Assembly (NCBI GenBank): GCA_016860785.1
Contig: BOKC01000001.1
Location: 62,001-126,000 of the forward strand
Reading direction: 5' to 3'
From: Patescibacteria group bacterium
GTDB taxonomy: Bacteria > Patescibacteriota > Minisyncoccia > Phycocordibacterales > BOKC01
Length of the DNA: 64,000 nucleotides
The notes under the pieces were generated by a model. It saw nothing but the letters and a program-made list of their open reading frames with translations. It ran no database searches and was not told where the DNA came from. Every line of letters begins with the position of its first letter. The stretch's first letter is position 1. Made by a program: the position numbers and the translations under genes. This document shows, piece after piece, positions 37,129 to 49,417 of the stretch.

Positions 37129-37158
37129 AAAAGAGTACATTTACATAAGGAGAAGTAG

Positions 37159-38352
37159 ATGAAAATCCTAATGATCTGCAAATATCCGCCGATTCAGGGT
37201 GGGGTGAGCGCTGAGTGTTACTGGACGGCTCAAGTCTTGGCTGAAATGGGGCACGAGATTCGAGTTCTGACTAATGCCCAAGAAGTTGAAGAGGGATATC
37301 GTATCTCTATGTCTCCGGAAGATGAGAAGCTTCTTACTGGATTTAAGGATCCGAATTCTGTCGAGGTCTTTTCTACTACCATGGACAAACGGCATGTCTT
37401 CATTCCTCAGACAAACCCATCCGTTTCCAAACTCTTGAGTTTGGGACTGGAACTTGTGGATGCAGGTAGACCAGACTTGATCTGGTCTCATTACCTGGAA
37501 CCCTATGGGGTGGTCGCTTACTTGCTGTCAAAGATTACTGGTGTTCCGTACATCTTTCGACATGCCGGCAGCGACATCGGGCGGCTGATGCTGACTACTC
37601 AACTCCAAACCATCCACCACGAAGTTTTACGGAACGCCATGATGATTCTGACCAGATCTTCACATCATGACCGATTTCTCAAGCTCGGTGTTCCTCAAGG
37701 CAAGTTGGTCGATTCGGTGTCTGTTAAACTTCGACCAGAACTGTTCTTTCCAACCAAATTTTCTATTCACGACCATTTAGTCTTGGGTGTCTACGGCAAG
37801 GTTGGAGAGTCAAAGGGAACAGGTGACCTTATTGGTGCTATGTCACTTCTCAAGAAAGAAGGGTTCAGAGTCACACTTCAAGCTCATTGGGGCGGCAGAG
37901 ACCTTCCACGATATCTTCGCCAGATTCAGGAGATGGATGTGGAGGACACTATGGAAGTCAAAGGCTTTATCCCTCATTGGCAAATTCCCGACTTTATTCG
38001 CTCTTGCAACGCTGTTCTCTTTCTGGAGAATCGCTTCAATATCACCTTTCACCACCCGTCAACTCCTCTTGAGATCATCTCCTGTGGCAGACCGGTCATC
38101 ACCACTTCCGAAGTAGCGAACAAGCAGTTCTACCAAGATCTTCTGATCGACGGAGTTAACTCCTTTGTTATTAAAGAAGACATCACCGTAGAGTCGGTTG
38201 CTTCAGAAATCAAGAGAGCTTCGAAAAACTTGCGAGCGAAAGGAGGCACTGACATCTCTTGTTCTCTCAAGGTTTCTGAAACTCGTCTTCGGATTCTCAT
38301 GCACAAGCTTGTCGAGAGTTTCAACATCCATCTTTCCCGCCTAGATATTTAG
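37159..38352 (+). CDS. GT4-family glycosyltransferase
   Basis: This 397-aa GT-B enzyme has an N-terminal Rossmann fold (MKILMICKYPPIQGGVSAECYW with the Gly-rich acceptor loop, SHYLEPYGVVAYL, FRHAGSD). The C-terminal domain has the nucleotide-sugar-binding segment ending HPSTPLEIISCGRPVITT, where Glu is the conserved phosphate-contacting residue. It should transfer a sugar to a cell-surface glycan or lipid. Codon use is visibly GC-richer than in neighbouring genes. It is a stand-alone unit with its own promoter, 5' hairpin, Shine-Dalgarno and terminator. Confidence 0.87.
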   Translation: MKILMICKYPPIQGGVSAECYWTAQVLAEMGHEIRVLTNAQEVEEGYRISMSPEDEKLLTGFKDPNSVEVFSTTMDKRHVFIPQTNPSVSKLLSLGLELVDAGRPDLIWSHYLEPYGVVAYLLSKITGVPYIFRHAGSDIGRLMLTTQLQTIHHEVLRNAMMILTRSSHHDRFLKLGVPQGKLVDSVSVKLRPELFFPTKFSIHDHLVLGVYGKVGESKGTGDLIGAMSLLKKEGFRVTLQAHWGGRDLPRYLRQIQEMDVEDTMEVKGFIPHWQIPDFIRSCNAVLFLENRFNITFHHPSTPLEIISCGRPVITTSEVANKQFYQDLLIDGVNSFVIKEDITVESVASEIKRASKNLRAKGGTDISCSLKVSETRLRILMHKLVESFNIHLSRLDI

Positions 38353-38378
38353 GAGTGTAATTTTACATTATCCACAGA

Positions 38379-38409
38379 GACTGCGCGTATTTCGCGCGGT
38401 CTTTTTTTA
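38379..38409 (+). terminator. Intrinsic terminator after the glycosyltransferase
   Basis: GACTGCGCG pairs with CGCGCGGTC around TATTT and is followed by seven T. Confidence 0.9.
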
Positions 38410-38422
38410 TAGATTTTCTTTT

Positions 38423-39151
38423 TTATGTTTTTTTAAACACTAAATATAGCCACTGATTTTTTTTAGAATTTTTATGTTTTTTGATATTAGCGATAAAATC
38501 TTCTCGTTCTTTTGCAGATTTAAAATTTCTACTCATGACTGGAATTTTACTAAAAGCAATTATCTCATCGGCTGTTTTGCTATATTCCTTAACTGATTTA
38601 GCAATGAGAGTTAATTTGTTGTCTTTGGCCCAGGAAGTTAAGTTTTTAAGATTGTAAGGTAGAGGATTTCTTGGCTTATTTTTAAAATACCTATAACTAA
38701 AAAATTGATCAGGCAAATTAAAAGCGAATAGTCCATCATCTTTTAAAATATCAGAAATATTTCTAAAAGTTGTTTTTACCCTCATTTGCCAGAAAGCAGA
38801 ATTACAAATGACTACGTCTACCGGCTCTTTAACAACTTTACAAAGATTTTCAGCTTCGGCCACGATAAACTGCATATTTTTTCTATTCTTAAATTTTTCC
38901 TGGGCTTTCTTTACCATTGCTTCCGCTTGGTCAATAGCGATAATACGAACATTGTCTCCAACAGCGTTTATAATTTCTTGTGTTGTTGCTCCAGTTCCAG
39001 CTGCTAGGTCAATTATTGTCATTCCTGGTTTAACATCTGAAATTTTTACTAGATCTCGACTAGTATTCTTATACATAGAAAAACCAGTAGCATATTTATC
39101 ATATGCATTCGCATTTTCTTTTGTATTCCAACTTATTCTATATTTACTCAC
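38423..39151 (-). CDS. SAM-dependent class I methyltransferase
   Basis: The 242-aa protein has the Rossmann methyltransferase motifs: motif I IIDLAAGTGATTQEI (about residues 46-60), the acidic post-I residue in IIAIDQAEAMV, and motif IV VDVVICNSAFWQM. The fold resembles UbiE/COQ5-like small-molecule methyltransferases. The substrate is not readable. It is AT-rich like the backbone and followed by the 39.2 kb GC-rich gene in the same orientation upstream. Confidence 0.85.
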   Translation of the reverse strand: MSKYRISWNTKENANAYDKYATGFSMYKNTSRDLVKISDVKPGMTIIDLAAGTGATTQEIINAVGDNVRIIAIDQAEAMVKKAQEKFKNRKNMQFIVAEAENLCKVVKEPVDVVICNSAFWQMRVKTTFRNISDILKDDGLFAFNLPDQFFSYRYFKNKPRNPLPYNLKNLTSWAKDNKLTLIAKSVKEYSKTADEIIAFSKIPVMSRNFKSAKEREDFIANIKKHKNSKKNQWLYLVFKKT

Positions 39152-39182
39152 GATGTTAGATAGAATATAACCTATTTATAAT

Positions 39183-39215
39183 AAATAAAAGAGGAGCGAA
39201 TAGAAATCCGCTCCT
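39183..39215 (-). terminator. Intrinsic terminator of the GRDP-like gene
   Basis: On the minus strand AGGAGCGG pairs with TCGCTCCT across a short loop, followed by CTTTTATTTAT. Confidence 0.75.
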
Positions 39216-39224
39216 TTACTGACT

Positions 39225-39701
39225 TCAGCCGTCGTTGCAGGCGGCGTTGCATCCACAGTTGTCGCATGGGTCGGCACCAACGCTCTCAAGCCGAGGGTAG
39301 TCCCAGTTTTCAGAGAGTGTGTCTCCGAAAACCTCGCGAGCCAGCTTGAGCGCTCTTCGACCACCTTCACCTTTGGTCGGCGGATCGTTGGGATGGCGCG
39401 GCCGATGATAGATGAGCCGACCGAAGTACTTTTTGCAGAACTTCTCATAGTCACGCATGAAGAGGATGAACTCATGCCAGCCGAAATCCAGTGTCTCGTT
39501 GGGAGAGATCGTCTCCGGACTCACCGCGCAGAGGTAAAGGAACCTCTTGGTGTCATGGAAGAGTTGCCGGGCATCTTCGCCACTGATGCCGAGCTTTTCC
39601 TGGAAACGCGCGACTAGAACTGGATGTTCGTACGCCAGAACTTCCTCCACCGTGCAGGGCACGGTTTTGAGAGAGGTCGGCATTGTTGCGAGAACAGTCA
39701 T
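39225..39701 (-). CDS. Glycine-rich-domain-containing-protein-like (GRDP-like) protein with Cys-rich tail
   Basis: The 158-aa protein contains LDFGWHEFILFMRDYEKFCKKYFGRLIYHRP, which follows the pattern L-x-x-x-WH-x-FIL-x-T/M-RDY-x-x-FC-x-x-x-FG-x-x-x-x-H of GRDP-like proteins. VVARFQEKLGIS and TKRFLYLCA before it also fit. The biochemical role of this family in bacteria is unknown. The C-terminus ends in a cluster DPCDNCGCNAACNDG with four Cys that could bind metal. It is a GC-rich monocistronic unit with promoter, 5' hairpin, AAAGGA site and terminator. Confidence 0.6.
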   Translation of the reverse strand: MTVLATMPTSLKTVPCTVEEVLAYEHPVLVARFQEKLGISGEDARQLFHDTKRFLYLCAVSPETISPNETLDFGWHEFILFMRDYEKFCKKYFGRLIYHRPRHPNDPPTKGEGGRRALKLAREVFGDTLSENWDYPRLESVGADPCDNCGCNAACNDG

Positions 39702-39738
39702 GTCGTATTCCTTTTGTGTAAAGAACCACTTCTAACCT

Positions 39739-39807
39739 CTCTGTGAACACTCACAGAGATAAAGATTAGATCTATACTTATGTTAGCAGGGGGGCGTTTG
39801 TTGTCAA
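39739..39807 (-). promoter_or_regulatory. Promoter and 5' hairpin of the GRDP-like gene
   Basis: On the minus strand TTGACA (39807-39802), 16-bp spacer, TAACAT (39785-39780). The leader then folds as a perfect CTCTGTGA/TCACAGAG hairpin (39758-39739). Confidence 0.65.
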
Positions 39808-39892
39808 CTTCATGCCAAAAAATTATCCACAGGGTGATTTAGCTTGGTTTTATGATTTGTTTTTGAGACTTTGTTTTTACCTATTGCTTCTT

Positions 39893-40087
39893 ATCAACAA
39901 ACAACTTGGTTTGGAGTTTACACCACCTGAAAGGAGTGATAGAATACAAAAATGCTGAGTTTCGGTCATGGTATTTGGATGGAACTGAAGGAAGATAGAA
40001 TTTTGAATCTTCCAGTGTTTTTAGTGGTTCCAAAAGAATTAAAAATTTTATAAAAGATAACAAAATCCCGTAAAAACGGGATTTTGT
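39893..40087 (+). repeat. Direct repeat copy 1: promoter, 33-aa ORF and terminator module
   Basis: About 195 bases are nearly identical to 44441-44635; I see single-base differences only. The module includes TTTACA-17 bp-TAGAAT, a 33-codon ORF and the terminator AACAAAATCCCGT/ACGGGATTTTGTT. It occupies most of the gene-free stretch 39808-40095. Confidence 0.92.
39952..40053 (+). CDS. 33-aa protein, copy 1
   Basis: ATG 39952 lies seven bases after the TAGAAT -10 element, so the mRNA would be leaderless. The 33-codon frame begins MLSFGHGIWMELKED, contains LPVFLVVPKEL and ends in TAA before an intrinsic terminator. The second copy at 44500 encodes the same peptide; the visible codon difference (GTG versus GTA) is silent. 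That, and the complete transcription signals, support a real small gene. I recognise no family. Confidence 0.55.
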   Translation: MLSFGHGIWMELKEDRILNLPVFLVVPKELKIL

Positions 40088-40095
40088 TTTTTTGT

Positions 40096-42407: not shown

Positions 42408-42435
42408 TTTCTGATCCTTTCTGTTAAAGTGCTTT

Positions 42436-42527
42436 GAGCAAAACTGTTTTGCCCTTGTCTTCCTAAACTATAACACAGGGGATGGGGGAGTTCAAGTAGT
42501 TTTAAAAAACTCAAACTTTATCAACAA
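42436..42527 (-). promoter_or_regulatory. Duplicated promoter/leader module, copy before gmk
   Basis: Minus strand TTGAAC (42495-42490), 17-bp spacer, TATAGT (42472-42467), then a GCAAAAC-A-GTTTTGC hairpin at the mRNA 5' end. The 92 bases match 44357-44448 except at two positions. Confidence 0.85.
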
Positions 42528-42578
42528 CCCCATCAAAAACCATTTACATTTGGGGTTCTTGTTTTTAATAAAAAGTTA

Positions 42579-43046
42579 TTAGATATTCCCTTCAGCTTTT
42601 CTCTTATATTCTTCAATAGATTCAAGGCCTATTTCTGCCCTTAAATTATTAACTTTGGCTTCATCTTCAATCGGTAAAAATTCTATCTTTCCTTCAACTA
42701 TTTTATATTGAGTTCCATATTTTTGTTTTTTCCCTTCCTGAATTCTTATCTTATCAACAATAAATGCTTCATCTTTATTTTCAACACATCCTTTTTTATT
42801 TTTTATTTCCTCATAAATAATTTTAATATTTTCAAGTGGTTGATGAAGAGTTAAAATAATTCCTGCTCCGTACTCTTCTTCGCTAGATGTATTTTTACAG
42901 GGGAAACCTTTATTTTTGAAAATATCAAAAAAACTTTTGGAAATATGTTTATTTATTTTTTTAAACTCTTCTTCAGAGATTTTCCCTTGCCTCAATAACT
43001 CAATGTTTTTCTGGTCTTCTTCAAGTAGATTTTTTATCTCACCCAT
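42579..43046 (-). CDS. DUF6624-like protein
   Basis: The 155-aa protein shows the pattern of the DUF6624 family: AFIVDKIRIQEGKKQKYGTQ in the middle and PIEDEAKVNNLRAEIGLESIEEY near the C-terminus, where the KQ-x-YGTQ and the Asp-x-Arg positions are conserved. The function of the family is not known. Composition is AT-rich. It follows the peptide gene but lies beyond its terminator. Confidence 0.55.
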   Translation of the reverse strand: MGEIKNLLEEDQKNIELLRQGKISEEEFKKINKHISKSFFDIFKNKGFPCKNTSSEEEYGAGIILTLHQPLENIKIIYEEIKNKKGCVENKDEAFIVDKIRIQEGKKQKYGTQYKIVEGKIEFLPIEDEAKVNNLRAEIGLESIEEYKRKAEGNI

Positions 43047-43065
43047 GATTTATGATTTTATCATA

Positions 43066-43099
43066 GAAAAAGAGCCAGCCTTTTGGTAGGGCTGGCTCT
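43066..43099 (-). terminator. Intrinsic terminator of the ATP-grasp/peptide operon
   Basis: On the minus strand AGAGCCAGCC pairs with GGCTGGCTCT, followed by TTTTTCT. It lies about 24 bases after the peptide stop codon. Confidence 0.88.
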
Positions 43100-43122
43100 G
43101 TGGCCACAGAACCGATGAGCAT

Positions 43123-43293
43123 TCAGATGGTGTCGCTGTCACCGGTTCCCTGAATGAACGTATCTTGCTCGTTTTGTGCGGCATGATCAGGCATATCAGC
43201 GACCTGCATGCCAGCGGAACGAGCCGCAATCAGCGTAATCGGACCCGTGCGATCCACTTCTTCTGACGAGGATGACTTGCAAGCTGATGTCAC
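43123..43293 (-). CDS. 56-aa candidate graspetide (RiPP) precursor peptide
   Basis: A 56-codon frame starts at GTG 43293 with AAGGAGG seven bases upstream, and stops with TGA at 43123. The N-terminal half is a Ser/Glu-rich leader with a central hydrophobic stretch (ITLIAARSAGMQVA). The C-terminal 17 residues, QNEQDTFIQGTGDSDTI, combine Thr/Ser with Asp/Glu and one Asn. That is what an ATP-grasp ester/amide ligase of the graspetide type joins into side-chain macrocycles. It lies 47 bases after the ATP-grasp gene and before a terminator. No homologue is recognised; the role is inferred from context and composition. Confidence 0.6.
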   Translation of the reverse strand: MTSACKSSSSEEVDRTGPITLIAARSAGMQVADMPDHAAQNEQDTFIQGTGDSDTI

Positions 43294-43340
43294 AATGACA
43301 CCTCCTTGACGAATGAGAGGAAACTAAGAGAGGAACACCC

Positions 43341-44321
43341 TTACTTAGTTAACCCTCGAACAATTGACCCAGAGATATCATAACCCAGTTTGTGTTCAGA
43401 AGGCAACCATTGTCCCTGTGGATTGACTTCGAAAAACACATATTGTCCCTCACAAGAAAATCCTAAATCAACACAACCAAAGCGAAGGCCGAGAGATTTT
43501 ACGATGGAGACACAATGACTCTTAATTTCAGTCGGCAGAACGTGGTGTGAGTATATTCTTTCCCCTTCGTAATTTCTCCAGTCCAAATTTGTCGGGTCGT
43601 TGCATCCATCTAGAATGATCTTAGCCGAAAAAACATCTTGATCAACAACGGTCACCCGGACATCGAATTCTTTCCTGATAGCTTCTTGGAAAATCACAGG
43701 GCAATTTCTCACCATGTCCAAGTTGTCCAAGATATCTGTTGGATTGACGATTTTGGTGAACACAACTTTGTTTTGGTTGGAAGCAAGATCACCTTTTTCG
43801 TCAAGATTCAAGAAAGAAGTTCCCACAGGCTTGATTGTCAACTCCCTCCCCTTAAGAGCATCGATGAATTTCCTGCATTCGCGGGGTGAATTTGTAATAC
43901 AAGTCTTTGGAATATTCATTCCAAGTTGGCGAGCTTTCCTTAATTGTATTGGTTTGTTTCCACCTAATCTTTCTGCCCCAGGACTTGAAATCCAGTTGAT
44001 ACTAGGGAAATAGCTGGCGAGCGATTGTGTAACCACTCTACCCTCATTTTCCATGTACTCATCAATTTTCCGACGCCTCACGTTTTGGTGATTTCCGTTT
44101 GACCGTCTCCAATAAACACCCGAAAGAGTCTCGATTTGCAAGTTACCGATTGTTATGACAGGACATCTCGATTCCTGAGAAGGATAAAAGCTTATTTCGG
44201 CATTTTTAGGATATTGACTAATATCCCAAAGAGTTGTTTGAACCCCCATTTCTTTTCCTCGAGCGAGAACCTTTTTCCCATGACGATCTTCCTTGTAAGA
44301 CACTACGATTATTGTTTTCAT
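43341..44321 (-). CDS. ATP-grasp ligase, MvdD/graspetide-maturase type
   Basis: From ATG 44321 the protein has 326 residues. The N-terminal part contains SGVYWRRSNG, the ATP-grasp core has NKPIQLRKARQLGMNIPKT, LTIKPVGTSF and FQEAIRKEFDVRVTVVD, and the end has FGCVDLGFSCEGQYVFFEVNPQGQWL. The final Glu-x-Asn metal site and the NPQGQWL run are typical of microviridin-type MvdC/MvdD ligases and relatives. These activate Asp/Glu side chains of a precursor peptide with ATP and close esters or amides with Thr/Ser/Lys. The next gene is a 56-residue peptide. The in-frame extension upstream of 44321 crosses the promoter and is not coding. Confidence 0.85.
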   Translation of the reverse strand: MKTIIVVSYKEDRHGKKVLARGKEMGVQTTLWDISQYPKNAEISFYPSQESRCPVITIGNLQIETLSGVYWRRSNGNHQNVRRRKIDEYMENEGRVVTQSLASYFPSINWISSPGAERLGGNKPIQLRKARQLGMNIPKTCITNSPRECRKFIDALKGRELTIKPVGTSFLNLDEKGDLASNQNKVVFTKIVNPTDILDNLDMVRNCPVIFQEAIRKEFDVRVTVVDQDVFSAKIILDGCNDPTNLDWRNYEGERIYSHHVLPTEIKSHCVSIVKSLGLRFGCVDLGFSCEGQYVFFEVNPQGQWLPSEHKLGYDISGSIVRGLTK

Positions 44322-44356
44322 TTTCACACCTCTGTTTTGAAGGTACTGTGTTTTTA

Positions 44357-44448
44357 GAGCAAAACTGTTTTGCCCTTGTCTTCCTAAACTATAACACAGG
44401 GGATGGGGGAGTTCAAGCAGTTTTAAAAAACTCAACCTTTATCAACAA
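44357..44448 (-). promoter_or_regulatory. Duplicated promoter/leader module, copy before the ATP-grasp gene
   Basis: Minus strand TTGAAC (44416-44411), 17-bp spacer, TATAGT (44393-44388), then the GCAAAAC/GTTTTGC hairpin. It differs from the gmk copy at two of 92 positions. It abuts the second 33-aa module. Confidence 0.85.
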
Positions 44449-44635
44449 AGAACTTGGTTTGGAGTTTACACCACCTGAAAGGAGTGATAGAATACAAAAA
44501 TGCTGAGTTTCGGTCATGGTATTTGGATGGAACTGAAGGAAGATAGAATTTTGAATCTTCCAGTGTTTTTAGTAGTTCCAAAAGAATTAAAAATTTTATA
44601 AAAGATAACAAAATCCCGTAAAAACGGGATTTTGT
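44441..44635 (+). repeat. Direct repeat copy 2: promoter, 33-aa ORF and terminator module
   Basis: Second copy of the 39893-40087 module, 4548 bases further on and in the same orientation, again immediately followed by a metabolic gene. Confidence 0.92.
44500..44601 (+). CDS. 33-aa protein, copy 2
   Basis: This copy has the same 33-codon frame and signals as the copy at 39952: TAGAAT seven bases before ATG, TAA, then the AACAAAATCCCGT/ACGGGATTTTGTT terminator. The T-run after the terminator is shorter here. I know no family. Confidence 0.55.
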   Translation: MLSFGHGIWMELKEDRILNLPVFLVVPKELKIL

Positions 44636-44644
44636 TATATAGAT

Positions 44645-45736
44645 ATGAATTTTAACCAAAAACAAGTTTTTACTAATGTTGATGTGAGTAATTTTCAAGA
44701 GTACGATAACCATAAAACGGTTATGCGCTTTGAAGACCCTCAAAGTAACTTGGTGGGGTTTTTATCTGTTCATAATGATAACCTTGGTCCGGCAGTCGGA
44801 GGCACTAGAATGTTTCCTTACAAAACTGAAAAAGAGGCTATTTCGGATGTTTTAAGACTTTCCCGGTCAATGACTTACAAGAATGCTATTTCAGGATTGT
44901 ATTTTGGGGGAGGAAAGTCAGTAATTATAGGAGACGCAAAAAGTAAAAATAAAAAATTATTAAAATCTTATGCAGAAATTATAAAAAGCTTAGAAGGTAG
45001 ATTCTATACAGGAGAAGATGTTGGGATTAGTGAAGAAGATGTTCAATTTATGTTAGAATACTGCCCTTACTTTATAGGTAAAACAGGTTTTGCGGGAGAC
45101 CCATCTCCTTTCTCATCTCTAAGTGTTTTTTATACTATGCAGACAGCTTTAGAAGAATCTTCAGGAAATAGTTGTTTAAAAAATCGAATAATAGCTATAA
45201 AGGGTTTAGGAAAAATTGGAATGAGTTTGCTAAATTTTGTAAAAAATGCCGGAGCGAAAATAATTGTTGCTGATATAAACCCTGTTATTACAAATGATAT
45301 AAAAAATCAATTTCCTGATATAGTGGTTGTAGGACATGAAGAGATACACAAACAGAATGTAGATGTCTTTTCTCCGTGTGCTTTGGGAGGTGATCTGAAC
45401 GAAAAAATACTAAAAGAACTTCGGTGCAAGATAGTATGTGGCGGAGCTAATAACCAACTGTCAGCAAAAGAAATGGGTAACGAACTTATGAAAGCTGGTA
45501 TTCTCTATGTTCCAGATTATCTGGCAAATGCTGGAGGTCTTATTAATGTTGTTGACGAATTAGAACATGACGGTTACAACCGTGCTCGAGTTTTAAAAAG
45601 AATAGAAAAATTGAAAAGCACTCTGAAAAGAATAATTTTAACCTCAATAGAGAACAAGAGTCCTACGAACGTGGTTGCTGATCGGTTGGCTGAAAATTTT
45701 TTTACGAATAAAGTTTCTAACCTAATCCATGTCTAA
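44645..45736 (+). CDS. Leucine/valine dehydrogenase-type amino-acid dehydrogenase
   Basis: The 363-aa enzyme has the Glu/Leu/Phe/Val dehydrogenase layout: GPAVGGTRMFPY and YKNAISGLYFGGGKSVI with the catalytic Lys, and TGEDVGISEEDVQFM. The NAD-binding IAIKGLGKIGMSLL and CGGANNQL and LPDYLANAGGLI-like segments follow. It interconverts a branched-chain amino acid and its 2-oxoacid. It starts a coherent run with an acyl-adenylating enzyme, an E1-like protein and a nitroreductase, and overlaps the next gene by eight bases. Its role here may be to supply or remove an amino-acid building block. Confidence 0.88.
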   Translation: MNFNQKQVFTNVDVSNFQEYDNHKTVMRFEDPQSNLVGFLSVHNDNLGPAVGGTRMFPYKTEKEAISDVLRLSRSMTYKNAISGLYFGGGKSVIIGDAKSKNKKLLKSYAEIIKSLEGRFYTGEDVGISEEDVQFMLEYCPYFIGKTGFAGDPSPFSSLSVFYTMQTALEESSGNSCLKNRIIAIKGLGKIGMSLLNFVKNAGAKIIVADINPVITNDIKNQFPDIVVVGHEEIHKQNVDVFSPCALGGDLNEKILKELRCKIVCGGANNQLSAKEMGNELMKAGILYVPDYLANAGGLINVVDELEHDGYNRARVLKRIEKLKSTLKRIILTSIENKSPTNVVADRLAENFFTNKVSNLIHV

Positions 45737-47234
45737 TTACTATTTCAAAAAACCAAAATCGCACGAAATCATAAATTTTACTATAAAAAAGAATAGTAAA
45801 TTTTGGGAAAAAGAGGGTGATAAAAATTCCATAAAGCTTTTTAAAAAAGTTGCCAAAAATGTGCCTGCGTATAAAGATTTTCTAAAAAAGAATAAGATTA
45901 ATCCAGAAAAAATTAAAAAAATAGAAGAATTTAAGCAAATTCCAACTATAAATAAAAAGAATTATTTAAGAAAATATCACATTGAAGATCTTTGTTGGGA
46001 TGGTATTTTAAAGGAACCTTTGATTTTTACTTCTACTTCCGGATCTACAGGAAAACCTTTTTATTTTCCTAGATGGCAAAATCTTGATTGGGAATATTCT
46101 TTATTAGTGGAAGATTTTTTGCAAAACAGTTCGTATAAAACAAAAGGCCCTATTCTGGTTATTATTGGTTTTGGAATGGGAATATGGATAGGGGGATTAA
46201 TAACTTATAAGGCTTTCGAAATTGCAAGTCGGCGCAATAATCTTCCGGTTTCAATTATTACTCCAGGAATAAACAAGATAGAGATTTTAAAAACACTAAA
46301 AAATATAGCACCCAACTACAAAGAAACCATAATTGTTGGATACCCCCCTTTCCTGAAAGACATAATAGACGAAGCAAAATCAGAGAAGATAAATTTACAT
46401 AAACTAAATATCCGATTATTTTCTGCTGCCGAATCGTATACTGAAAAATTTAGAGATTATATTGCAAAAAACTCTGGTATCAAAAATACTTTTTTAGATA
46501 TTACAAATATTTATGGAACAGCGGACATTGGTGCTATGGCTTGGGAGACTCCAACTTCTATCTTAATTCGTAGACTTGCTGTAAATAACAAAAAACTTTT
46601 TAAGAATATTTTTTTGCAAACTGAAAAAACACCAACCTTGGCTCAGTACAACCCACTATTTATCAATTTTGAATCCGTGGATAATGAAATCGTTCTTACT
46701 GGAAACAACGCTATTCCACTTGTAAGATACGAGGTTGGAGATCAGGGCGGGGTAAGAACTTTTGATGAAATTCGTTTTGAGTTAGAAAAGAAAAATTTTG
46801 ATATAAAAAAAGAATCTAAAAAACATAAGATTAATCATATTCATAAATTACCTTTTGTTTATATTCTTGAGAGATCAGATTTTTCAGTTTCACTTTATGG
46901 ATTGCAAATATATCCGGAACCAATACGTGAGTCTCTCCTTTCTCAGCCTATCTGTAATTATCTAACAGGTAAGTTTGTTCTAGAAATTAGATTTGACAGC
47001 AAGCAGAATCAGTTTCTTCAAATACATTTGGAACTTAAAGATAAAAACACCTCTAGTGTTTTAAAAGGGGCAGTACTCAATTCTATCGTAGAAAATCTTA
47101 AACAAAGAAACTCAGAATATCAAGAACTTCATAAATTTTTAGGGAAACAAGCTTTACCAAAATTGACATTTTGGCCCAATGGAGATCCGAAGTACTTTAA
47201 GCCAGGAATAAAGCAAAAATGGGTTAAGAAATAA
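45729..47234 (+). CDS. PaaK/LuxE-like acyl-adenylating enzyme
   Basis: The 501-aa ANL-superfamily protein has the P-loop TSTSGSTGKPF at about residues 97-107 and an aromatic-rich NIYGTADIGAMAWE (A5-like) segment. GNNAIPLVRYEVGDQGGV corresponds to the motif around the conserved Asp (YxxGD). It resembles phenylacetate-CoA ligase and LuxE acyl-protein synthetases, which form acyl-AMP and pass the acyl group to a thiol. The carrier or CoA partner is unknown. The start overlaps the dehydrogenase stop, so they are translationally coupled. Confidence 0.8.
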   Translation: MSNYYFKKPKSHEIINFTIKKNSKFWEKEGDKNSIKLFKKVAKNVPAYKDFLKKNKINPEKIKKIEEFKQIPTINKKNYLRKYHIEDLCWDGILKEPLIFTSTSGSTGKPFYFPRWQNLDWEYSLLVEDFLQNSSYKTKGPILVIIGFGMGIWIGGLITYKAFEIASRRNNLPVSIITPGINKIEILKTLKNIAPNYKETIIVGYPPFLKDIIDEAKSEKINLHKLNIRLFSAAESYTEKFRDYIAKNSGIKNTFLDITNIYGTADIGAMAWETPTSILIRRLAVNNKKLFKNIFLQTEKTPTLAQYNPLFINFESVDNEIVLTGNNAIPLVRYEVGDQGGVRTFDEIRFELEKKNFDIKKESKKHKINHIHKLPFVYILERSDFSVSLYGLQIYPEPIRESLLSQPICNYLTGKFVLEIRFDSKQNQFLQIHLELKDKNTSSVLKGAVLNSIVENLKQRNSEYQELHKFLGKQALPKLTFWPNGDPKYFKPGIKQKWVKK

Positions 47235-47294
47235 AAAACTAACTTATTTTCTACACTCTACCTCGCCACTCTTATTCGGGTTATAATTGCTGTA

Positions 47295-48353
47295 ATGTCA
47301 AATAAGCTGATTTTTATAAAATCTCCAAAAGAGCTTACCAAAATAAACCGGCAGAAATGCAAGCCGGTTTTTGTGGATGCTTTTTCAAGGCAAATAAAAG
47401 AACTTTTTTTGGTTGAGAACCCGAAGTTTTCAATAGAAGACAAAAAAGAAGTATATCGTAGTAGGGAATTCAAAGATTTTTCAAAGAAAAAAGAAAAAGA
47501 TTTTGTTCTTATTTATTTCCCTTGGAATAATCACCTTGTTAAGTGCGTCAAGGAAAATGATTATTTCAAACTCAAAACTAATCGCAATAGAGATTTAATA
47601 ACAGAAAAAGAACAGAAGAAATTGGCAAATTTTACTGTTGGCGTTGTAGGACTTTCGGTAGGTGCCAATATGGCAACTGCTTTGATTCACAGTGGTTTCT
47701 CTAAAAATATTAAACTCACTGATTTTGACGAGCTTGATACCACAAACTTAAACCGAATTAGGGCAAAGGTTTCAGAAATTGGAGACTCTAAAATTGGCAT
47801 CGCCAGCCGGCAAATTTCTGAAATTAATCCATACGTTAAGATAAACTCTTTTCCTAAAGGATTAAATAAAAAAAATCTAAAGAATTTTCTGGCAGGTAAT
47901 CCGAAACCCAAGCTTGTGTTTGAACTGATTGATGATTTTGAGATGAAGATTTTATTAAGAAAAGAAGCTAGGAGATATAAAGTCCCGGTAATTATGATTA
48001 CAAGTTTAGGAGACAGCGTTTTAATTGATATAGAGAGGTATGACACAGAGCCGAAAACAAAATTATTTAATGGAAAAGTAAGTGAAAAAGTTTTAGACAA
48101 AATCCTTGCTGGAAGTTTGAGCGAAAAAGAGAAACATCAATGCGCTATAGATATCGTTGATGGTAAAAATCTTCCCTCAAAAGTCAAAAATTCAATAAAA
48201 CAAATAGGTAAGACCCTCGCCGGTCGACCTCAACTTATGTCGACTGTAACCGTCGCTTCCGGTATTGCCGTTTTCCTTGCCCGAAAAATCGCTTTAGGTG
48301 AAAAACTCAAAAGCGGCAGGAAGCTAGTGAAATTTAATAATTTTATTAAATGA
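47295..48353 (+). CDS. E1-like (ThiF/MoeB/HesA) adenylyltransferase
   Basis: The 352-aa protein contains a ThiF fold in residues about 110-300: VGVVGLSVGANMATALIHSGF (ATP-binding Gly-rich loop), LTDFDELDTTNLNRI with the metal-binding Asp, and the conserved Arg residues after it. No catalytic-Cys/zinc Cys pairs are visible, unlike MoeB. The N-terminal 100 residues and the C-terminus resemble the Rv1355c-type proteins in which a ThiF domain is paired with a nitroreductase. Here the nitroreductase is the next gene, overlapping by four bases. It should adenylate a carboxylate of a protein or small molecule. Confidence 0.82.
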   Translation: MSNKLIFIKSPKELTKINRQKCKPVFVDAFSRQIKELFLVENPKFSIEDKKEVYRSREFKDFSKKKEKDFVLIYFPWNNHLVKCVKENDYFKLKTNRNRDLITEKEQKKLANFTVGVVGLSVGANMATALIHSGFSKNIKLTDFDELDTTNLNRIRAKVSEIGDSKIGIASRQISEINPYVKINSFPKGLNKKNLKNFLAGNPKPKLVFELIDDFEMKILLRKEARRYKVPVIMITSLGDSVLIDIERYDTEPKTKLFNGKVSEKVLDKILAGSLSEKEKHQCAIDIVDGKNLPSKVKNSIKQIGKTLAGRPQLMSTVTVASGIAVFLARKIALGEKLKSGRKLVKFNNFIK

Positions 48354-49417
48354 AGGACGTAATCAAAGAAATCCTAACCCTCGCAGTAAATGCACCGTCC
48401 GGGCATAATTCTCAGCCGTGGAGATTTGAGGTAAAAGATAGTTCTATTTTTATCTATAACATTCCGGATAAGGATAAAATTTTGTTTAATTGGCAACAAA
48501 GAGGGTCTATGATTGCTCACGGTGCTTTGATTGAAAATATAGCAATAATTTCTTCAGAAAAAGGATATCGGGCGGATATAAAAACTTTTCCGGATGAAAA
48601 AGAGATTAATTTAACCGCAGAAATAAAACTAGAAAAAAGCTCGGAGGATTATTCTTACAGGCATCTTTCTCCCTTCATTTTAAAAAGAACCACTAATAGA
48701 CGACTATTTGAAATTGAGTCTCTTAAAGATGCGGATAGGGAAGTGTTAAATAATTTTATAGAAACACAAAAAAATTCTGGACATGAAATCCTTTTGACAG
48801 AAGACAGGGAGAAAATCAATCAAGTGGTAGGACCTTTTAGTGCCGGAGATAGATTGCTTTTCGAAAACCAATATGTCCACAAATCGCTTTTTGATAATGT
48901 AAATTGGACCCTGAAAGAAGAACGAGAAAGAAGAGAAGGTTTATATTTAGGAACTAAAGAGCTTAATTTGGCAGAAAGAATTTTCTTTAAATATGTAATG
49001 AGTAAATGGAACTTTGTTGAAAAACTTAATAGAATCGGCTTTGCGAAAAAAGCCGGAGAAAAAAGAGCGAATCTTTATAAAAATTGCTCGGCTATGGGTT
49101 TGGTTACAGCTCCCAGTGATTCTCCAAGAGACTTTATCAATTCAGGAAGGGTTTTAGAAAGATTCTGGCTGACTGTAACATCTCTTGGTTTAAGCTTTCA
49201 GCCTGTATCTGTTGGGCTTCTTTATTTAGGACAAAGGTGTAAAATAGAAAAACCGGAGGAATTGACACCTGGACAGGGTCAATATGTAAAAGAGTCGTAT
49301 AATAAGATAATGAGAGAGTTTAATATAATAAATAAAGTCCCAATCTTTAGTTTCCGAATCGGATATGCGCCACCACCCTCTGCCAGCTCGCTTAAAAAAC
49401 AGCCGGAGATTGTATAA
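48350..49417 (+). CDS. Nitroreductase-family flavoprotein
   Basis: The 355-aa protein begins ILTLAVNAPSGHNSQPWRFEV, the FMN-binding opening of nitroreductases, and has RTTNRRLFE and the second-half segment GRVLERFWLTVTSLGLSFQPVS that lines the dimeric flavin site. It is longer than simple NfsB enzymes, like the nitroreductase half of Rv1355c-type fusions. Such proteins can oxidise or reduce azoline/thiazoline-like products of cyclisation. The four-base overlap with the E1-like gene implies a joint function. Confidence 0.85.
   Translation: MKDVIKEILTLAVNAPSGHNSQPWRFEVKDSSIFIYNIPDKDKILFNWQQRGSMIAHGALIENIAIISSEKGYRADIKTFPDEKEINLTAEIKLEKSSEDYSYRHLSPFILKRTTNRRLFEIESLKDADREVLNNFIETQKNSGHEILLTEDREKINQVVGPFSAGDRLLFENQYVHKSLFDNVNWTLKEERERREGLYLGTKELNLAERIFFKYVMSKWNFVEKLNRIGFAKKAGEKRANLYKNCSAMGLVTAPSDSPRDFINSGRVLERFWLTVTSLGLSFQPVSVGLLYLGQRCKIEKPEELTPGQGQYVKESYNKIMREFNIINKVPIFSFRIGYAPPPSASSLKKQPEIV

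Follow-up and report, generated by a model that had tools for sequence, protein, structure and literature searches.

The locus described here raises the question of whether an uncultured member of the Candidate Phyla Radiation (CPR), whose genome comprises 574 kb (8 contigs, 92% complete), makes a ring-closed peptide, and which genes take part in this. According to the original prediction, a promoter, an ATP-grasp gene, a short open reading frame (ORF) and a terminator form a complete two-gene unit in the window, i.e. the whole 64,000-nucleotide stretch of DNA that was analysed. All four elements are indeed in place on the minus strand, but a third gene, which encodes a DUF6624 protein, had been missed. 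The order is promoter, ligase, precursor ORF, terminator and DUF6624; the cassette extends from 42528 to 44353 and is bounded by 95-bp direct repeats. Judging from sequence, it almost certainly serves to make an ester-linked, ring-closed peptide. Its assignment as a graspetide (omega-ester-containing RiPP) cassette appears well supported, and we are highly confident that the ATP-grasp ligase, the 56-aa precursor and DUF6624 are its three genes.

The ligase gene (43341..44321, minus strand) encodes 326 aa and likely starts with the ATG at 44321 behind the Shine-Dalgarno (SD) sequence GAGGTG rather than at the TTG of a longer ORF. Searches against NCBIfam matched TIGR04187 (1e-50), MvdC (1e-45), MvdD (2e-42) and rimK_fam (6e-10), and the N-terminal half of the protein aligned end to end with MvdC, MvdD and TIGR04187. 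A profile built from 11 homologues retrieved from the PDB the chains 5ig9 and 5ig8 (both named 'ATP grasp ligase'), 7m4s (AMdnB) and 7mgv (CdnC) at 2e-74 to 2e-71, followed by 9bou (8e-48), 7drm (1e-26) and RimK chains (1e-7). D285, N300 and R222 are invariant and E298 is nearly invariant in the 11 homologues; the four closest ligases, in addition, all share D220 and W71-R72-R73. We take D285, E298 and N300 to be the metal ligands of the ATP-grasp fold. The gene product thus looks like an MvdC/MvdD/TgmB-type ligase with intact ATP/Mg residues. The predicted 'MvdD type' is nevertheless approximate: the graspetide maturase family holds, but all named subfamily cut-offs are missed, with 156 bits for MvdC (cut-off 425) and 145 bits for MvdD (cut-off 475), the microviridin equivalogs, and 172.6 bits for TIGR04187 (SAV_5884/TgmB; cut-off 350). 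These shortfalls count against the graspetide reading.

The host genome carries a single gene of this kind, and among the 149 relatives searched, 12 other genomes have homologues. The three nearest, in genomes G059, G083 and G097, are 38–40% identical and form a supported clade with the window's ligase (99/93), in which G059 is sister to the window (97/88). The deeper forks of the tree lack support and therefore do not reveal where the CPR ligases originated. The viral contigs searched contained no relative of the ligase family, and the phages searched yielded two ligases only, both distant. A ligase in Leptospira phage KF114876.1 (L145:2815-3783) shows 32% identity across 81% of the query and is preceded by a 37-aa ORF, possibly constituting a phage-encoded graspetide pair. 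PADLOC matched neither the ligase nor DUF6624.

What is the substrate of this ligase? The candidate is the 56-codon ORF with GTG start at 43123..43293 (minus strand), which has homologous ORFs in the same place at the loci L024, L023 and L025. A tblastn search with the window's peptide hit a site exactly 3' of the homologous ligase gene in G083 (E = 2e-6), which argues that the ORF does not exist by chance. Following up the proposal that ligase/short-ORF pairs should recur in related genomes, we found a short peptide 3' of all three nearest ligases, and alignment of the C-termini with that of the window's peptide was gapless. Anchored at their right ends, the four C-termini read PDHAAQNEQDTFIQGTGDSDTI, PETDFAREHDTMIQRTGDSDTI, RTPDIVAETDTLDQGSSDSDTI and SEPGIAMETDTKDPYSDCSDTI and have the pattern E-x-D-T-x4-[S/T]-x2-S-D-T-I in common. 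Counted from the C-terminus, the invariant columns are E-15, D-13, T-12, S-4, D-3, T-2 and I-1, and position -7 is always Ser or Thr; in the window these correspond to E42, D44, T45, S53, D54, T55 and I56, and to position 50, respectively. Six of the seven invariant columns hold Asp, Glu, Ser or Thr, i.e. ester donors or acceptors, the exception being the last Ile, while the remainder of the peptide varies. When residues were shuffled within the peptides, none of 200,000 trials gave seven invariant columns, the maximum being three. The predicted pairing of Thr/Ser with Asp/Glu at the C-terminus is therefore borne out, as exactly these residues are conserved in the four peptides. A short ligase-adjacent precursor is thus conserved across species, and its core, predicted from the four-peptide alignment to span residues 42–56 (EQDTFIQGTGDSDTI; 43126..43170, minus strand), presents conserved Ser/Thr as putative donors and Asp/Glu as putative acceptors; its conserved part contains no Lys.

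Upstream of the core, the peptide carries a leader motif, PITLI (residues 18–22; 43228..43242, minus strand), with the counterparts PITFL in G083 and G097, PITF in the more distant G340 and DPFMFQF in G059. These appear similar to the published graspetide leader motif 'Phhx(1,2)h' (PMC8939145), but the window has Thr as the second h. Several observations count against the graspetide reading. The G059 leader resembles that of the window in type only, the last ~20 codons of the G097 peptide are in another frame than its ATG, and just four members of the ExDT...SDTI precursor family were found. The frame break in G097 may reflect an assembly or sequencing error, or decay to a pseudogene. Likewise, no leader peptidase or transporter is encoded near the ligase and precursor genes, in line with the original prediction, which had noted no adjacent transporter or protease; we saw none in the window neighbourhood either.

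The more remote ligases in the order and phylum are accompanied by short peptides of their own, mostly led by an SD and with different cores. These comprise ...GTSIGTHDEPDSAGLD in G194 and G276, with a variant in G001, which belongs to the same genus as the window; ...TSAWWTGGPDS/ES... in G078 and G055; ...TTSGT..DID... in G714 and G644; and PLLPITFAFGEP... in G340, where the gene order is as in the window. A further family lies beside the ligases G276b and G344 on the strand opposite to the ligase (L117:10576-10779, minus; L120:957-1142, plus) and follows the pattern P-I/L-LLRRI..KP ... HMT-I/V-VTT.G..PEM.D..EDAT.

The expression signals at the locus agree with the prediction of a ligase/peptide pair with its own promoter and terminator. 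A consensus scan detected the promoter-like sequence TTGAAC-17-TATAGT with a TG-extended -10 ahead of the ATP-grasp gene (44388..44416, minus strand), and the identical sequence also precedes gmk (42495-42467). The strong SD of the precursor gene, AAGGAGGTG (43299..43307, minus strand), lies just 5' of its start codon. AGGAGG at SD distance occurs in 3 of the 342 ORFs of 40–80 aa in the window, and the precursor ORF has it. The pair is closed by an intrinsic terminator between precursor and DUF6624 (43066..43099, minus strand; -18.9 kcal/mol, z -3.45), composed of a hairpin (43099-43071) and the T-run TTTTT; the consensus scan did not report it, since the scan accepts loops of up to 8 and this one has 9. 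Hairpin and T-run recur between peptide and DUF6624 in G083 and G097 (z -3.5 to -5.6, window included), and G059 shows a similar hairpin there, for which the z of -1.1 refers to a truncated piece. In general, SD sequences are scarce in the window: a good one was found in 8 of 54 genes scored, these exceptions including the peptide, ligase and glycosyltransferase genes. GC3 did not differ significantly between SD-led and other genes of the window.

The third gene, just past the terminator (42579..43046, minus strand), encodes a 155-aa protein that belongs to DUF6624 (PF20329; E 7.6e-11) with 42.2 bits, as compared to the Pfam gathering cut-off of 27. It occupies the same place in all four cassettes (window, G059, G083 and G097), and DUF6624 lies beside 16 of the 29 CPR ligases placed in the tree. 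A survey of 397 genomes from the order gave 32 with DUF6624, 26 with the ligase and 13 with both, that is, DUF6624 is present in 13 of 26 ligase genomes versus 19 of 371 others (Fisher p = 2.4e-9; the evidence is at most this strong, because related genomes are not independent). In 12 of the 13 genomes with both genes, the two are close together on one contig. The DUF6624 start codons in the window, G059 and G097 lack an SD and have an A/T-rich, -10-like stretch nearby; in the window, TATGAT directly precedes the ATG. Given the preceding terminator, the missing SD and the -10-like stretch at the start, DUF6624 would be transcribed separately, from a near-leaderless transcript of its own. We rejected the missing SD as a special feature of this gene, since most genes in the window have none.

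As to the function of DUF6624, its predicted structure (pLDDT 96.5) is mainly helical with one hairpin, and fold searches of the model against the PDB and viral models gave no match below E = 1, so that no function can be derived from the fold. A weak sequence match to a designed repeat protein was disregarded. In G649 (L108) and G575 (L109), a graspetide-type ATP-grasp ligase is fused behind a ~290-aa N-terminal domain of no assigned family (open frames of 605–621 aa); this fusion was considered as a Rosetta stone for DUF6624 and dropped, as no DUF6624 motif was recognisable by eye in the extra domain. Carter et al. 2026, who noted a high frequency of DUF6624 in graspetide groups 18, 20, 23 and 42, proposed that it is a biosynthetic enzyme (PMC13097080); no other mention of DUF6624 was found in the papers searched. 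An enzymatic role is also suggested by invariant polar residues that could form an active site, as D11, Q12, H68, D98, Q108, T112 and R136, together with G111, are invariant in 19 sequences. Both points speak against the possibility, compatible with the graspetide reading, that DUF6624 serves immunity or self-protection rather than being a maturation enzyme. That role would fit the apparent transcription unit after the terminator, the absence of a ligase from 19 of the 32 DUF6624 genomes of the order, and the situation in the same-genus genome G001, which retains a DUF6624 protein 52% identical to that of the window near a different ligase/precursor pair; we consider it a serious minority option. 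DUF6624 probably also has a role outside graspetide loci, since solitary genes sit among ordinary genes. In L126, L127, L128 and L129, from genomes of the same order that lack a graspetide ligase, the neighbours look ordinary and are uninformative. None of the plasmid DUF6624 genes in four annotated records lies beside an annotated ATP-grasp gene.

The cassette is flanked by a 95-bp direct repeat, one copy of which lies at the ATP-grasp end (44354..44448) and the other, 97% identical, in the gmk promoter region at the opposite flank (42433..42527). The outer repeat runs on into a 198-bp copy (44439-44636 versus 39891-40088, 99%), and three repeat junctions have TTATCAACAA in common. Such nested repeats with shared junctions suggest recent recombination. 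In G001, the neighbourhood matches the left part (~37141-39807) and not beyond, and a different ligase/precursor pair is located elsewhere. This arrangement would fit insertion of the cassette by recombination in the gmk promoter. Through the nested repeats, the gmk promoter is present twice, as is a terminator that is accompanied by an apparent gene remnant. Further observations concern the surroundings: a 158-aa protein without Pfam match (39225-39701, minus strand; GC-rich, GC3 0.65; Cys-rich tail DPCDNCGCNAACNDG) is conserved in G001 (G001:C3), where its neighbours are again the glycosyltransferase and methyltransferase genes. On the other side, genes for a Leu/Glu-type dehydrogenase, a PaaK-like acyl-CoA ligase, a ThiF/E1-like protein and a nitroreductase follow in a row (44645-49417, plus strand), the latter two being separate genes here, each corresponding to one half of the Rv1355c family protein.

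Taken together, our computations show the ligase family, the conservation of donor and acceptor residues, the conserved gene order and the terminator. In the mechanism that we propose, ligase and precursor would be produced from one transcript ending at the terminator. The ligase would bind the leader of the precursor through the PITLI stretch, use ATP to activate the carboxylates in the side chains of E42, D44 and D54, and close esters with T45, T50, S53 and/or T55, probably yielding two to three rings, each at the expense of 18 Da. DUF6624, made from its own transcript, would act as an accessory protein, most likely in tailoring or processing and less likely in self-protection, and the product may be exported to target competing or host cells. 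A more far-reaching reading combines a new CPR core class (ExDT...SDTI at the C-terminus, free of lysine, with ring residues up to the last-but-one position) with DUF6624 as a dedicated processing or tailoring enzyme that replaces the missing peptidase/transporter and with movement of the whole cassette as a unit between CPR genomes; this combination we regard as rather doubtful.

It is very unlikely that ligase and peptide form a real pair in which the peptide is modified without macrocyclisation, e.g. as an acceptor of glutamylation or another amide ligation: ATP-grasp enzymes can also join free amino acids as amides and the conserved core is devoid of Lys, but among the conserved residues hydroxyl donors balance carboxyl acceptors, as they do in graspetide cores, and the nearest enzymes to the ligase are ring-forming. 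Hardly credible is a RimK-like ligase that adds glutamate or another amino acid to a cellular protein or cofactor next to an incidental short ORF, as the common ATP-grasp fold, the weak rimK_fam and MptN scores and the RimK chains in the PDB are outweighed by a score ~40 orders of magnitude weaker than that of the graspetide maturase model, by the end-to-end fit of the N-terminal half to MvdC/MvdD/TIGR04187 and by the retention of ORF place and cross-linkable residues in four lineages.

Assuming a graspetide cassette, its presence is of interest because CPR bacteria possess few genes for biosynthesis and a life on other cells is assumed for them. That genomes of ~0.6 Mb conserve a cassette for peptide modification suggests a possible role of the peptide in host interaction or competition. 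The window offers a compact, expressible pair of a ligase and a 56-aa substrate with sharply defined core, and, DUF6624 being present in several graspetide groups, a minimal context for assaying its role.

Among known systems, microviridins and marinostatins (MvdC, MvdD, MdnB, MdnC) would have the ATP-grasp fold, domain layout and leader-driven side-chain esters in common with the window's cassette. However, its ligase is ~26% identical to Nostoc MvdC, there is one ligase instead of two, and the PFFARFL leader and the peptidase-ABC transporter are missing. The fuscimiditide-type SAV_5884/TgmB family (TIGR04187) provides the best-scoring named model, whereas the ligase stays below the curated cut-off and no O-methyltransferase (PIMT) gene adjoins. 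Closer are the CPR graspetides of ATP-grasp branches 1 and 2 described by Makarova et al. 2022, whose loci include a neighbouring protein, 'cluster 23', which has conserved His and Arg and no assigned function (PMC8939145). This protein is probably DUF6624, as the His/Arg pattern and the context are shared. Uncultured CPR hosts, a graspetide-type ligase and a short precursor whose leader motif resembles Phh are further common traits. Group 42, which is uncharacterised and includes many examples from candidate phyla (PMC13097080), is likewise similar by description in its hosts and its frequent DUF6624. Thus, the locus, which had been called notable for an ultra-small bacterium, is real, but its kind is already known: CPR graspetides were published in 2022, and the occurrence of DUF6624 in graspetide clusters followed in 2026. 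The features that appear to be new are the seemingly separate transcription of DUF6624, its confident model without match among solved structures, and the precursor family itself. While the core signature of branch 1 is TxxxTx(6-10)Dx(1-4)D and no precursor was identified for the majority of branch 2 loci (PMC8939145), the core in the window, ExDTx4[ST]x2SDTI, is placed at the very C-terminus, and this precursor and core family, present in four lineages, appears to be undescribed, as far as the published descriptions of branches 1 and 2 and of group 42 go.
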